A stretch of DNA of 33,530 nt from an uncultured Oscillospiraceae bacterium (lineage in GTDB: Bacteria > Bacillota > Clostridia > Oscillospirales > Oscillospiraceae). The stretch's first letter is position 1. Every line of letters begins with the position of its first letter. The notes below the pieces were generated by a model, which worked only from the letters and a program-made list of their open reading frames with translations, did not search any database and was not told where the DNA came from. A program made the translations under genes and the position numbers. The stretch is taken from NCBI GenBank assembly GCA_947626905.1, contig CANQUE010000022.1:1-33530 (forward strand), written 5' to 3'. Of the stretch, positions 1 to 8,952 are shown in pieces.

Positions 1-743
1 GTGTTGCGGGTGTAGGTCTCATAGGTGCGGATGCCCCGCTCGCAGAGGATCACGTTCTCGTTGCCGCCGGCCATGATATACTCCGCGCTCATCAGAAGCT
101 CCTTCAGGGTGTTGGCCAGGCCCCGCTTCAGCAGGATGGTCTTGTTGGTCCGGCCCAGGCCCTTGAGGAGCTCGAAGTTCTGCATGTTCCGGGCGCCGAC
201 CTGGATCACGTCCACGTCCGCGAAAATGTCCAGATCCCGCAGGTCCATGATCTCCGACACGATGGGCAGCCCGGTGACCTTCTTCGCCTCGCTGAGAAGC
301 TCCAGACCGGTGGCGTGCAGGCCCTGGAAGTCATAGGGGCTGGTCCGGGGCTTGAACGCGCCGCCCCGGAGCAGCTTCGCCCCGCTGGCCTTCACGGACT
401 GGGCGATGCCGATGATCTGATCGTGGTTCTCCACGGAGCAGGGCCCGGCGATGACGGCGAAATGGCCGCCGCCGACGCTCACGCCCCCGGCGTTGACCAC
501 CGTGTCCTCCGGGTGGAACTTCCGGTTGCATTTTTTGAACGGCTCGCTGACCCGCTTCACGGACTGGACGATCTCCAGACTGGCCAGAAGCTCCATGTCG
601 ATGTGGCTGGTGTCCCCCACCAGACCCAGGATGGTGTACTCGCTGCCCTGGGAAACGTGGACCTGGACGCCCTGGGTTTCCAGCCAGTGGATGAGATGGT
701 CCCGCTGCTCGTCGGTGGTGCTGGGTTTCAATACGGTGATCAT
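1..743 (-). CDS. aroF: 3-deoxy-7-phosphoheptulonate (DAHP) synthase, type I-beta, 3' end cut by window
   Basis: Catalyses condensation of phosphoenolpyruvate with erythrose-4-phosphate, the first step of the shikimate pathway to Phe, Tyr and Trp, in the cytosol. I translated it from the ATG at 743 reading leftwards. About 70 N-terminal residues (MITVLKPSTT...) form the ferredoxin-like regulatory domain of the Thermotoga/Bacillus type. The barrel follows, with GPCSVE near residue 99 and LRGGAFKPRTSPY near residue 125, the PEP/phosphate-binding signatures. About 247 codons are present; the family is usually about 335-340 residues, so the C-terminus lies outside the window. A good ribosome-binding site (AAAGGAG) ends about 10 nt before the ATG. 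In this family the N-terminal domain mediates feedback by Tyr/Phe, which fits the Phe/Tyr leader peptide and attenuator just upstream. The six-frame listing has no long ORF in this frame because the gene runs off the edge. Confidence 0.95.
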   Translation of the reverse strand, partial: MITVLKPSTTDEQRDHLIHWLETQGVQVHVSQGSEYTILGLVGDTSHIDMELLASLEIVQSVKRVSEPFKKCNRKFHPEDTVVNAGGVSVGGGHFAVIAGPCSVENHDQIIGIAQSVKASGAKLLRGGAFKPRTSPYDFQGLHATGLELLSEAKKVTGLPIVSEIMDLRDLDIFADVDVIQVGARNMQNFELLKGLGRTNKTILLKRGLANTLKELLMSAEYIMAGGNENVILCERGIRTYETYTRN

Positions 744-766
744 TGGTTCGACTCTCCTTTGCAAAA

Positions 767-795
767 AGGCTGTGCGGCAATGTGCCGCACAGCCT
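767..795 (-). terminator. Attenuator terminator hairpin upstream of aroF
   Basis: A perfect 13-bp stem (AGGCTGTGCGGCA / TGCCGCACAGCCT) with a 3-nt loop is followed on the minus strand by a run of five T (767-763). It sits between the Phe/Tyr leader peptide and the aroF ribosome-binding site, only about 20 nt before the aroF start. Uncontrolled, it would end transcription before the gene, so it must be regulated. Confidence 0.9.
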
Positions 796-839
796 GGTGG
801 TTTTCCTGTTCCAACGGTTTTTCGCAGCACGTATCGCTA

Positions 840-893
840 TTACTCCGTAAAGAAGTAATAGTAATAATAGCCGGCAAAAAAGACGCGCTGCAT
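840..893 (-). CDS. Phe/Tyr-rich leader peptide of the aroF attenuator (17 aa)
   Basis: A 17-codon ORF on the minus strand encodes MQRVFFAGYYYYYFFTE, with five Tyr and four Phe. A plausible ribosome-binding site (AGGGAG) lies upstream of its ATG. It follows a consensus promoter and precedes a terminator hairpin and the DAHP synthase gene. Codons are TTT TTT, then TAT TAT TAC TAT TAC TTC TTT. This is the layout of enteric pheA/trp-type leaders: ribosome stalling on scarce Phe-tRNA or Tyr-tRNA would alter folding of the downstream RNA. Segment GCAGCGCG (codons 1-3, 884-891) can pair with CGTGCTGC (824-831) just after the stop codon. The latter can instead pair with GCGGCAC (782-788) in the 5' arm of the terminator. 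No similarity search was possible; the call rests on composition, position and pairing logic. Confidence 0.85.
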   Translation of the reverse strand: MQRVFFAGYYYYYFFTE

Positions 894-938
894 ATGAGGT
901 ACGCTCCCTGAAAAGAGGTTTTCCGCTGGGATGGTGGC

Positions 939-967
939 ATTATATAACCAAAAGCGGAGCTTGTCAA
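939..967 (-). promoter_or_regulatory. Consensus sigma-A promoter for the aroF leader
   Basis: On the minus strand TTGACA (967-962), a 17-bp spacer and TATAAT (944-939) match the consensus at all twelve positions. Predicted start is about 932, some 40 nt before the leader peptide ATG. Such a strong promoter fits control by attenuation rather than by initiation. Confidence 0.88.
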
Positions 968-981
968 CGTTTCAAGCGAAA

Positions 982-1022
982 AAGAAGAAAAACAAGCCGG
1001 CGCGTTTTTTCCGCGCCGGCTT
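982..1022 (-). terminator. Terminator after the FemABX gene
   Basis: An 11-bp stem (AAGCCGGCGCG / CGCGCCGGCTT) with a loop of about 7 nt, followed on the minus strand by G and five T then more T-rich sequence. It lies 35 nt past the stop codon of the FemABX gene and just before the aroF -35 box. Confidence 0.88.
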
Positions 1023-1056
1023 GCCGCAGGGGATGGAGGAGGACAGGCAAAACGTG

Positions 1057-2196
1057 TCAGGCGCTGGCAGGGGCGTCCGCATCTCCCCCCGGCACGTGCC
1101 AGGGCAGAGGCCGGGGCTGGGTCAGAGGCGGTTCCGCGCCGGACTCCTTCCGCCGGCGCCGCCAGGTGGTATACCGGTCCCGGGCGGCCATATAGGCCCG
1201 CTCCGCCGTCCGGTACAGCCGGTATGTCATGGGCTTGTAAGGCATGGTCACCTCTCCGATGAACTCGGTGAGGACGCCGCCGAAGCGGCTTTTGAACAGA
1301 TACAGCCCGTTGCTCACGTCGGCCCGCTCCAGCACGCCCCGCATATCGTATATCGCGCAGCCCCGGGCGGCGGCGGTGCGGATGATCTCCCATTGGAGCA
1401 GGTAGTTGGGCATCAGATCCCGGTGGTCGTTGCCGCTGGCCCCGAAGACGTACCAGGTCTTGTTGCCGTAGTATACCGGGATGGCCCCGGCGATGGGGCG
1501 GCCCTCGTAGCAGGCCAGCAGCAGCTCCATGTGCTCCGGGCCCAGCGCGTCCCACATCCGCCGCAGATACTCCAGCGGCCGCGCCAGAAAACCGTCCCGG
1601 CGGGCGGTTTCGACCAGGAGCGCGTGGAACACCGCCAGATCCTCCCGGCCGCCCCGGCGGATCTCCACGCCCCGGCGCTGGGCCAGGCGGATGTTGTAGC
1701 GCAGCTTCCGGCCAAAACCGGCCATGAGCTCCTCCTCGCTCCGGTCGCGGATGTCCAGGCGGAACACGTGCCGGGGCTGGACCATGTCCCCGGCCCCGCT
1801 GCCCGCGCGGATCTGCCAGCCCAGGCATTTCATGATGCGCCGGAAGGCGCCGTCGTCGGAGGAAACGTCCGGCTCCATCCGAAGGGCCATGGCGTTATAC
1901 TTCCAGGCCAGCAGCTGCGCCCCCTCGGTCAGCTGGCGCAGGCTCACGGCGTCGTCCGGCCGGCAGATGGGGCCCCGGGGGCAGTACATCAGATTTCCGA
2001 ACAGCGGCATCCGCCGGATCAGCACGCTCATCCCGCCGGTGATGGTCCCGTCGGGGGCCTCCGCCAGGATGATCTCGTTTTTCCAGTTGGACTTTACCTG
2101 GGCCCACTCCACGGACTGCTGGAAATTGCAGCGCTCGTGGCGGGACAGAAATTCCGTATAGAGGCGCTTGGAAGCGTCGTCGTTGGCAAACCGCAT
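1057..2196 (-). CDS. FemABX-family peptidyltransferase (lipid II bridge amino-acid transferase)
   Basis: Members use aminoacyl-tRNA to add Gly, Ala or Ser to the stem-peptide lysine of lipid II, building the peptidoglycan cross-bridge at the cytoplasmic face of the membrane. At 379 residues it is near the usual 350-420. The hallmark stretch GGMSVLIRRMPLFGNLMYCP lies near residues 54-73. The tandem GNAT-like folds are suggested by the KLRYNIRLAQRRGVEI region (a FemAB signature) and YDMRGVLERADVSNGLYLFKSRFGG near the end. The C-terminal 40 residues are basic and proline-rich. The start is supported by GGAGG about 9 nt upstream. It appears to be a single-gene unit with its own terminator. The amino acid transferred cannot be read from sequence; a FemX/MurM-like role is an inference. 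Confidence 0.85.
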   Translation of the reverse strand: MRFANDDASKRLYTEFLSRHERCNFQQSVEWAQVKSNWKNEIILAEAPDGTITGGMSVLIRRMPLFGNLMYCPRGPICRPDDAVSLRQLTEGAQLLAWKYNAMALRMEPDVSSDDGAFRRIMKCLGWQIRAGSGAGDMVQPRHVFRLDIRDRSEEELMAGFGRKLRYNIRLAQRRGVEIRRGGREDLAVFHALLVETARRDGFLARPLEYLRRMWDALGPEHMELLLACYEGRPIAGAIPVYYGNKTWYVFGASGNDHRDLMPNYLLQWEIIRTAAARGCAIYDMRGVLERADVSNGLYLFKSRFGGVLTEFIGEVTMPYKPMTYRLYRTAERAYMAARDRYTTWRRRRKESGAEPPLTQPRPLPWHVPGGDADAPASA

Positions 2197-2383
2197 CTTC
2201 TTGTCCTCCGTTTCATGGTGTGGAAGGGGCCTTGCTCCTTGTGGCGTATCATACGCCCCGGCTGCATCAAAGCGGCATCGGATCTTTTAAGAATTGTTTA
2301 ATTTGTTGTTTTTTGTAACTAATTAGAGGATACCGGGAGAATATGAACAAATCGTGAACGTCAATTTAGGCTTTTCTTAAAAG

Positions 2384-2409
2384 AAAAAGCGCCCCCGGAA
2401 AGGGGGCGC
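2384..2409 (-). terminator. Terminator after the TSUP exporter gene
   Basis: An 8-bp GC stem (GCGCCCCC / GGGGGCGC) with a 5-nt loop is followed on the minus strand by TTTTTCTTTT. It sits 26 nt past the exporter stop codon. The stretch from here to the FemABX start (2197-2383) is AT-rich with no gene. I see no convincing promoter there, only a TTGACG with a short 15-bp spacing to TATTCT. Confidence 0.88.
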
Positions 2410-2434
2410 AAAAAGAGGCGGGATGGGGGAGCTT

Positions 2435-3199
2435 TCAGCCGGTGATCATCTCATAGACCACACGGATGAAGAACACGCACAGCACCACGGTGATCAGGGG
2501 CTTGACGATCCGGGAGCCCTTAGCGGTGAAGCAGCGCACGCCCAGGGAACACCCGGCGATGCCGAACAGGCCGGCGGTGAAGCCCAGCAGGATGTTGCCC
2601 TGGCCGTTGAGGAGATAGGTGACCAGGGCGGCGATGTTGGCGCACAGGTTGATGACCTTGGTGGTCCCGGCGGCGTCGTTGAGGCTCAGCCGGGCCACGC
2701 CGGTGAGCAGCAGCAGCATGAACGTGCCGGAGCCGGGCCCGTAAAAGCCGTCGTAGGCGCCCAGGGCCAGGGCGATGGCCGCGCAGGCCGCCATGGTGCG
2801 CCCGGGGGACAGGGGCTCCCGGCTCTCGCCGCCGATGGTCTTGGTCCGCATCACATACACCGCCGTCAGCGGCAGGATCACCAGCAGCAGCATCTTGAAG
2901 ATCCGGTCGGACAGGTGCAGGGCGATGTTGGCGCCGATGGCGGAGCCCACCAGGGAGCACGCCGCGCACACCAGGCTCAGCTTGGGCTTGATATAGCCCC
3001 GCTTCCAGAACTTCCAGGTGGTGACGGAGGAGCCCATAAAGGAGCTGAGCTTGTTGGTGCCGATGCTCATGTGCACCGGCAGTCCGGCGATCAGATAGGC
3101 CGGCAGGGTGATGAGTCCGCCGCCGCCGGCGATGGCATCCACAAAGCCGCCCAGGAAGATCAGCGGGCAGACGATGGCGTATTGCATCCAGACAGACAT
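2435..3199 (-). CDS. TSUP (TauE/SafE) family membrane exporter
   Basis: A hydrophobic 254-residue protein with about eight membrane segments. The two family-typical glycine-rich half-repeats are visible: GGFVDAIAGGGGLI at residues 17-30 and GAYDGFYGPGSGTF at 147-160. Members export small sulfur or organic anions (sulfite, sulfoacetate, sulfolactate) across the inner membrane; the substrate here is unknown. The start has AGGAGT about 9 nt upstream. It is transcribed divergently from the gamma-carbonic-anhydrase-like gene, whose promoter lies in the 98-bp gap. No sulfur gene is adjacent to hint at a substrate. Confidence 0.88.
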   Translation of the reverse strand: MSVWMQYAIVCPLIFLGGFVDAIAGGGGLITLPAYLIAGLPVHMSIGTNKLSSFMGSSVTTWKFWKRGYIKPKLSLVCAACSLVGSAIGANIALHLSDRIFKMLLLVILPLTAVYVMRTKTIGGESREPLSPGRTMAACAAIALALGAYDGFYGPGSGTFMLLLLTGVARLSLNDAAGTTKVINLCANIAALVTYLLNGQGNILLGFTAGLFGIAGCSLGVRCFTAKGSRIVKPLITVVLCVFFIRVVYEMITG

Positions 3200-8604: not shown

Positions 8605-8952
8605 GCCGTCTTAATTGGAAAGGGTCTTTCCAAAGCAGGATGCGACCGCCGTTCCCCGGGAACGGCCAAGGCCATACGGACAGCCGGGTCGAATGCCGAA
8701 CCCCGCGAAAGCGGCGGCAACTTCTGTTGCCTTATTGATTGAGCTGGGCGCCAGCGCTCGGGGCTCAAGTTTTATAAGTTGGTTACTTTATAACCGGTGC
8801 CGGGCGGCACGCAGACTTGTAAAATGGTCAGTAAGAGTAAGAGCAAGGCATTTTGCTTTCAGAAACTCTCAAACCCATTGGGACGGCCCGCCGTTTTTGA
8901 CGGCGCGGGGTGAATGGTCCGCAAGCGGAACGTGCCAGGCATGTTCCGCTTG
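8605..8952 (+). ncRNA. Unidentified structured RNA or long leader upstream of potA
   Basis: About 350 nt lie between the promoter and a strong terminator, with no credible protein. The ends can close: GCCGTC (8605-8610) pairs with GACGGC (8881-8886). Inside are many clear hairpins. They include TTGGAAAG/CTTTCCAA (8615-8633), GCCGTTCC/GGAACGGC (8648-8666) and a GAAA tetraloop CCGC-GAAA-GCGG (8703-8714). Others are GGCAAC/GTTGCC (8716-8731), TTGAGC/GCTCAA (8739-8768) and GTGCC/GGCAC near 8797-8809. CGCCGT/ACGGCG sits near 8890. It lacks the conserved signatures of RNase P, tmRNA, SRP, T-box, cobalamin and ydaO RNAs as I know them. Either a free small RNA ending at the terminator or a regulatory leader of potA-potB-potCD. 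Confidence 0.65.

Follow-up and report, generated by a model that had tools for sequence, protein, structure and literature searches.

An aromatic-codon leader ahead of aroF in Oscillospiraceae is very probably a Phe/Tyr leader-peptide attenuator

The window, a 33,530-nt stretch of DNA from an uncultured, gut-type Oscillospiraceae bacterium that was analyzed as a whole, begins with a DAHP synthase gene, aroF (positions 1 to 743, minus strand), that is cut by the contig end and is preceded by a short reading frame rich in Phe and Tyr codons. This arrangement raises the question of whether translation of the leader decides if the gene is transcribed. Control by leader translation is best known from enteric bacteria, where the trp and pheA leaders follow a logic of alternative segment pairings (1:2, 2:3, and 3:4) with the control codons in segment 1. 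The original prediction proposed a complete attenuator of this type for aroF, and all of the features that it named were found to be present, on the minus strand. From sequence and its comparison across relatives, we conclude that the aroF leader is real and conserved and that it is very probably a working Phe/Tyr leader-peptide attenuator.

The gene itself matched the family model NF006421 with 338.2 bits (cut-off 335), in agreement with the predicted DAHP synthase. Upstream on the minus strand, the order is a FemX/FemAB-like gene (145 bits against a family-model cut-off of 500), a terminator-like hairpin (1025-991), and then the leader promoter (939 to 967), whose hexamers TTGACA (967-962) and TATAAT (944-939), separated by a 17-nt spacer, match at 12 of 12 positions and thus have the full consensus that was claimed for them. 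It was the sole site in a scan of window positions 1 to 3000 at a threshold of 9/12, where shuffled sequences average 0.7 sites, and it would place the transcription start near 932. A ribosome-binding site, GGGAG (904 to 908), lies 10 nt upstream of a 17-codon reading frame ending in TAA (893-840), MQRVFFAGYYYYYFFTE, a Phe/Tyr-rich mini-ORF that is kept in relatives. As anticipated, this frame contains nine aromatic codons; the control codons are Phe at 5-6, Tyr at 9-13, and Phe at 14-15.

Downstream and overlapping with this frame, the RNA can adopt several pairings. An inner hairpin (837 to 861), formed by CTATTACTTC (861-852) and GGAGTAATAG (846-837) and indicated by folding and covariation, spans Tyr/Phe codons and the leader stop codon. 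Codons 4-8 (870 to 883) form the outer part of segment 1, whose partner in the centroid fold and the swap test is segment 2 (core GTGCTGC, 824 to 830) with its 3' flank, GAAAAA, extending to 818. The antiterminator partner of segment 2 is segment 3 (core GCGGCAC, 782 to 788), which is located within the 5' arm of an intrinsic terminator (segments 3 and 4; 763 to 795). This terminator, between the leader frame and aroF, has the predicted 13-pair stem (795-767) and a run of five T (767-763) that ends 20 nt ahead of the aroF ATG at 743, and the aroF ribosome-binding site, AAAGGAGAG (752 to 760), is not inside its stem. The 193-nt leader folded with a z score of -4.67 and its 3' part (105 nt) with a z score of -6.16, and in each case 0 of 200 shuffles were as good.

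The controlled unit is probably larger than the single gene. The first 75 bases of another contig of the same genome (C60) translate identically to aroF residues 223-247, and hence the window contig and C60 probably adjoin. C60 continues with genes whose best matches, some of them below cut-off, are prephenate dehydrogenase (tyrA), aroB, aroA, aroC, a fused aroE-aroK, and aroQ. One contig of a near relative (G027) carries aroF, tyrA, aroB, aroA, a chorismate mutase-like ORF, aroE-aroK, and aroQ, where gene matching covered all of the listed genes except aroC. While aroF does stand behind the attenuator as originally proposed, gene order suggests that what follows it is probably a whole shikimate operon, tyrA included, rather than aroF alone. 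The Tyr codons of the leader would suit an operon of which tyrA is a part.

The leader is widely conserved ahead of aroF, which was detected in 33 of the 35 genomes of the genus and in 160 of the 200 genomes of a family sample. For 30 genus copies (window included) and the best-ranked 87 family copies, we read the sequence upstream; the family set was made up of 27 fetched loci plus the 60 ranked next, with more distant aroF copies lying outside it. Upon defining a mini-ORF by at least five Phe, Tyr, or Trp within nine codons, we found one upstream of aroF in 30/30 genus and 81/87 family regions (111/117 in total), compared with 7/117 antisense regions and 49/1170 shuffles in the identical scan. 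A lack of such conservation had been named in advance as an observation that would refute the attenuator, and the conservation was found. The six family regions lacking such a mini-ORF include two (L043 and L050) where the leader is absent and aroF is preceded by other coding sequence; both are outside the 55 loci (30 genus and 25 family) of the duplex and 1:2 tests described below. A covariance model built from 30 leaders matched 50 of 60 regions outside its training set at E <= 0.001 in the sense direction and 2 of 60 in antisense. Two genus members (G001 and G007; loci L026 and L030) retain the leader together with a weak terminator (-12.0 and -13.1 kcal/mol), possibly through decay or altered control.

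Across species, the hairpins are maintained by changes on both sides of their stems. We compared 30 diverse leaders (7 of the 30 genus leaders and 23 of the 25 family leaders, with L035 and L037 omitted) and found that 88.7% of the cells of inner hairpin and terminator were paired and that 15 of 22 pairs were altered on both sides, as had been expected of covarying stems. Shuffle controls gave 9.2 ± 1.4 such pairs, with 0/500 reaching 15, and pairing dropped to 34 to 54% (maximum 53.8%) when the partners were slid. Pairs altered on both sides made up 11 of 12 in the terminator helix and 4 of 10 in the inner hairpin, which alone had 91.7% of its cells paired. One inner-hairpin pair alternates between A-U (14 sequences) and U-A (8), as Tyr (TAT) and Phe (TTT) codons replace each other there and the downstream partner in the alignment changes with them. 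RNAalifold applied to 30 leaders predicted the inner hairpin and the terminator and did not predict the 1:2 outer helix, and hence the support for the latter comes from duplex tests.

In these tests, the segments of each locus paired better with their own partners than with those of other loci. For the antiterminator (2:3) duplex, the own mean was -15.14 compared with -12.17 (SD 0.50) for swapped partners in the 25 family loci and -14.87 compared with -13.42 (SD 0.25) in all 55 loci (0/20,000 in both cases), whereas the effect was weak within the 30 genus loci (p = 0.037), all of these being permutation tests that ignore kinship and are inflated by relatedness. In an alignment of 27 genus leaders (the 30 minus L026, L032, and L012, whose leader is identical to that of L009), 6 of the 7 positions of the segment 2 core were invariant, and none of the eight antiterminator pairs was altered on both sides (four invariant and four one-sided), as follows from sequences that are almost invariant. 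For the 1:2 outer helix, the own mean was -16.24 compared with -12.84 (SD 0.36) over the 55 loci, with 0/20,000 there as well as within the genus alone and the family alone (again uncorrected for relatedness), and the helix of codons 4-8 with GTGCTGC and its 3' flank reached -9.2 kcal/mol or better in 30/30 genus loci. The original prediction had placed segment 1 elsewhere, pairing GCAGCGCG (891-884) with CGTGCTGC (831-824). The positions and complementarity of these segments and of GCGGCAC (788-782) were correct, with one G-U in each pairing, and in the window this 1:2 helix is even stronger than that of codons 4-8 (-13.8 compared with -10.1 kcal/mol). Scored as at least seven contiguous pairs between nucleotides 3-13 of the ORF and segment 2, it was present in 1 of 55 loci, and we reject it as the conserved form, although it is possible in the window genome. 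Accordingly, the proposed 1:2/2:3/3:4 logic held, with covariation or swap support for each pairing, but not its particular 1:2 helix. Segment 2 lies past the leader stop codon in the 30 genus loci and in 8 of the 25 family loci; the remaining family loci read it in frame 0 (4 loci), frame 1 (5), or frame 2 (8), which argues that it is conserved as RNA and not as peptide.

The terminator of the window (-25.5) is far stronger than its antiterminator (-13.7), so that the switch must be kinetic. Using a folding model, we obtained an antiterminator probability of 0.01 for the leader at the decision point without a ribosome, which rose to 1.0 once a ribosome with an 11-nt footprint had its A site at any codon from 3 to 17, while the full transcript without a ribosome formed the terminator (0.97). 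With the ribosome at the stop codon, the antiterminator probability was 1.0, 0.71, 0.07, and 0 at footprints of 9, 11, 13, and 15 nt, i.e., the expected low value appeared only for footprints of at least 13 nt. The geometry thus allows a classical switch, with a stop-codon result that hinges on the assumed footprint; folding with and without a ribosome had been suggested as a check, and its outcome was as expected on codons 3-17 but footprint dependent at the stop. A relative (L056) behaved as expected, with antiterminator probabilities of 0.00 without a ribosome and about 0.9 on most codons up to 15. Two others (L006 and L033) fit less well than the window, their values without a ribosome (0.52 and 0.77) being unexplained by the simple model.

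These observations can be cast into the following model. RNA polymerase would initiate near 932, and a trailing ribosome would read the 17-codon leader. When charged Tyr- or Phe-tRNA is scarce, the ribosome would stall at codons 5-15 and break the 1:2 hairpin, upon which GTGCTGC of segment 2 could pair with GCGGCAC of segment 3, no terminator would form, and aroF and the downstream genes would be transcribed. With ample Phe and Tyr, the ribosome would reach the stop codon and either mask segment 2 or depart so that 1:2 re-forms; in both cases, the terminator would form and transcription would end.

The window genome contains a second match to the covariance model (contig C53; E = 1.2e-8, 49.2 bits), located before pheA, a gene that scored 213.3 bits with the prephenate dehydratase model NF008865 (cut-off 219) and 182.6 bits with the bifunctional model NF007910 (cut-off 577). 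The pheA leader, MRFGFTAEFSFFTFARQK, has Phe codons and zero Tyr codons, and in the folding model most of its stalls yielded antiterminator probabilities of just about 0.5 to 0.7. In the genus, 30 pheA loci were fetched, and of the 28 copies with the full 260 nt upstream, 19 have a leader and 9 do not; six of these nine were read, and pheA is immediately preceded by a promoter in four of them and has a gene upstream in two. Tyr and Phe codons numbered 134 and 126 in the 30 aroF leaders but 4 and 116 in their 19 pheA counterparts (Fisher p = 1.5e-23, without correction for relatedness, which inflates this test as well). The trpE gene, found in 15 of the 35 genus genomes and not found in the window genome assembly (about 91% complete), is a different case: A T-box-like leader (RF00230 match) precedes it in 3/3 sister-species loci at a permissive threshold (67 to 87 bits; E from 3.7e-13 to 3.7e-18), and 0/6 genus trpE loci scored at the curated Rfam threshold of 93 bits. 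With T-box-like leaders in the three permissively scanned loci, a Trp leader at genus trpE was rejected for the loci read.

We consider ribosome-mediated transcription attenuation the best explanation of the aroF leader, with a probability of roughly 0.9. It accounts for a short ORF with a ribosome-binding site and a run of product-matching codons, for the intrinsic terminator, and for the conserved, mutually exclusive 1:2, 2:3, and 3:4 pairings. A peptide that arrests the ribosome by its own sequence, perhaps together with free Phe or Tyr and not through uncharged tRNA, would be encoded by this very stretch, and the leaders do repeatedly show an FFAG/FFAA-like motif in their N-terminal part. 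Arrest peptides usually retain fixed residues, however, whereas the residues of the codon run swap among Tyr, Phe, Ser, Thr, Arg, and His with the aromatic content kept, and the FFAA-like stretches are explained by the RNA helix that they make; we regard such arrest as very improbable.

Slightly less credible still is a constitutive terminator that sets a basal level without any sensing. The 3:4 hairpin is indeed the most stable element of the leader, but such a terminator would leave unexplained why the 1:2 and 2:3 pairings track each other across species, why the codons fit the products, and why a second attenuator stands at pheA. We give the least credence to a T-box or unfamiliar riboswitch that binds tRNA or a ligand, with the mini-ORF being incidental, even though T-boxes are a common Firmicute solution and T-box-like leaders precede trpE in sister species. 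A search of the aroF leader with Rfam 15 gave no family at threshold; RF00230 was not matched at E up to 10, and the sole amino acid operon leader to appear within that limit was Leu_leader, with 11.9 bits against a threshold of 50 (E = 6.3). Moreover, a mini-ORF occurs in 111 of the 117 regions, and RNAalifold yields no structure beyond the inner hairpin and the terminator. A T-box would resemble the attenuator in controlling transcription by sensing tRNA charging, but it binds tRNA directly and has no leader ORF.

Counting the window genome in each case, the covariance model matched 85 of 295 order genomes (E <= 0.01), 43 of 341 class genomes (E <= 0.001), and 6 of 348 genomes of a phylum sample, in searches whose strict filters miss weak members and whose weaker matches include false ones. 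Two aroF-tyrA leaders of the phylum sample lie outside the class (L286 and L287). The best order loci together with the pheA site of the window genome (n = 30) stood before 28 aroF, 1 pheA, and 1 TrpB-like gene, and the best class loci (n = 29) before 25 aroF, 1 pheA-like gene, and 1 tyrA-aroB, with nothing downstream in 2. A further 83 order and class matches (own pheA site and repeats excluded) included 40 that were fetched, of which 21 preceded aroF, 4 TrpB-like genes, 2 pheA, and 1 each paaK, leuA, ilvB, and tyrS. Nine of the 40 had nothing relevant downstream and were taken as false, as were the matches L236, L237, L288, and L289. A pattern scan of named genomes returned at least 119 stretches, and the 80 titles among the matches listed were mostly uncultured Oscillospiraceae, Clostridia, Clostridiales/Eubacteriales, and Faecousia, together with a few Bacillota or Ruminococcus, in keeping with the Firmicute host that had been proposed from the letters alone.

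The model built on aroF leaders also recognizes leaders at pheA (49.2 bits) and at a TrpB-like gene (56.4 bits). We tentatively entertain, at somewhat less than even odds, that much of the synthesis of aromatic amino acids in Clostridia and a few relatives is controlled by a single RNA attenuator family that shares an ancestor and has no Rfam 15 match at threshold. Its members would be the aroF operons and tyrA-aroB (Phe and Tyr), pheA and paaK (Phe), and TrpB-like genes (Trp/Tyr/Phe), with the codon cassette swapped, the RNA frame kept, and a T-box alongside at trpE. The alternative is convergence under the same constraints.

The original prediction called such an attenuator noteworthy in a Firmicute, which is fair, but there are precedents. 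An AroR leader of the Corynebacterium glutamicum aroF operon was reportedly described by Neshat et al. in 2014. There, ribosome stalling on the AroR leader peptide raises transcription, and AroR carries Phe-Tyr-Phe, with Tyr supply reported to be without effect and Phe alone acting (PMC11802643, PMC4046766). The window leader likewise encodes a predicted Phe/Tyr leader peptide ahead of a DAHP synthase gene, but it belongs to Clostridia and not Actinobacteria and has nine aromatic codons, five of them consecutive Tyr. An Acholeplasma candidate, uORFC-13-1, is a predicted uORF that lies beside a terminator upstream of aroF and has one or more Phe codons, with 24 examples from Acholeplasma and environmental sequence (PMC8632094); it shares the Phe-codon uORF and the terminator. 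The aroF leader follows the 1:2/2:3/3:4 logic of the enteric trp and pheA leaders, its control codons likewise lying in segment 1, but differs in phylum and gene, and no Rfam enteric leader was found at threshold; these enteric leaders, trpL and pheL, are named in PMC11802643. Within Bacillota, His leader-peptide attenuators are reported in bacilli (PMC2965389) and at his operons of Peptostreptococcaceae, Erysipelotrichales, and the Bacillus cereus group (PMC9413887), and a Leu leader-peptide attenuator at Staphylococcus aureus ilv-leu is backed by mutant and expression evidence (PMC5794164). These have the same proposed mechanism in the same wider phylum but concern different amino acids and genes. 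For the tyrA clusters of several Firmicutes, putative attenuators are mentioned whose type is not stated (PMC1173090). In the literature covered, mainly open-access papers, we recognized no description of leader-peptide attenuation for clostridial aroF or pheA. The mechanism, and even aroF as its target, are thus already known, while the host group, the breadth, and the multi-gene pattern appear new. Predicted leaders call for caution: In Streptomyces (Actinobacteria), codon mutations in the ilvB leader were without effect (PMC1262725).

If this reading holds, then anaerobes of the Oscillospiraceae type would let translation of a leader decide on a shikimate operon, with T-boxes guarding trp within one and the same genus. 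What each operon senses could then be read directly from the codons of its leader, and such a survey could extend to the genomes of species that have not been cultured. The relative response of a DAHP synthase leader to Tyr and Phe would also become testable, Phe alone having been reported to act in Corynebacterium.

Several other leaders came to light along the way. Leu/Ile/Val-rich leader ORFs with terminators precede leuA in two different classes (L362, G041:C7, and L292, G933:C10), leuA being identified by a family model in L362 and by the likeness of the gene start to that of L362 in L292. Their leader peptides end alike (GYLSCLQTD and GYLRCLQTD), and they are probable branched-chain attenuators. 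Within the genus, none of 13 ilvB loci had a convincing branched-chain leader (L398 and L404 being uninformative), and elsewhere a leader MSANFAAIIINIVIISLVVVLSIIGNGVFCAVKKADCC with a terminator-like hairpin was observed before ilvB (L373, G481:C50). A Phe-rich leader precedes a homolog of the phenylacetate-CoA ligase PaaK (L388, G609:C158; 560.1 bits, cut-off 646.3), possibly in connection with aromatic synthesis from arylacetates. Leaders combining Trp with Tyr/Phe codons stand before a TrpB-like PLP enzyme at five loci (L091, L364, L367, L377, and L384). A weak model match hundreds of bases ahead of tyrS (L370, G379:C16) contains a small YY-containing ORF and no clear leader. In the window itself, positions 8643 to 8699 of the plus strand match SpF59_sRNA (ldcC RNA), an Rfam family whose name comes from Streptococcus, with 67.7 bits (threshold 37.2).
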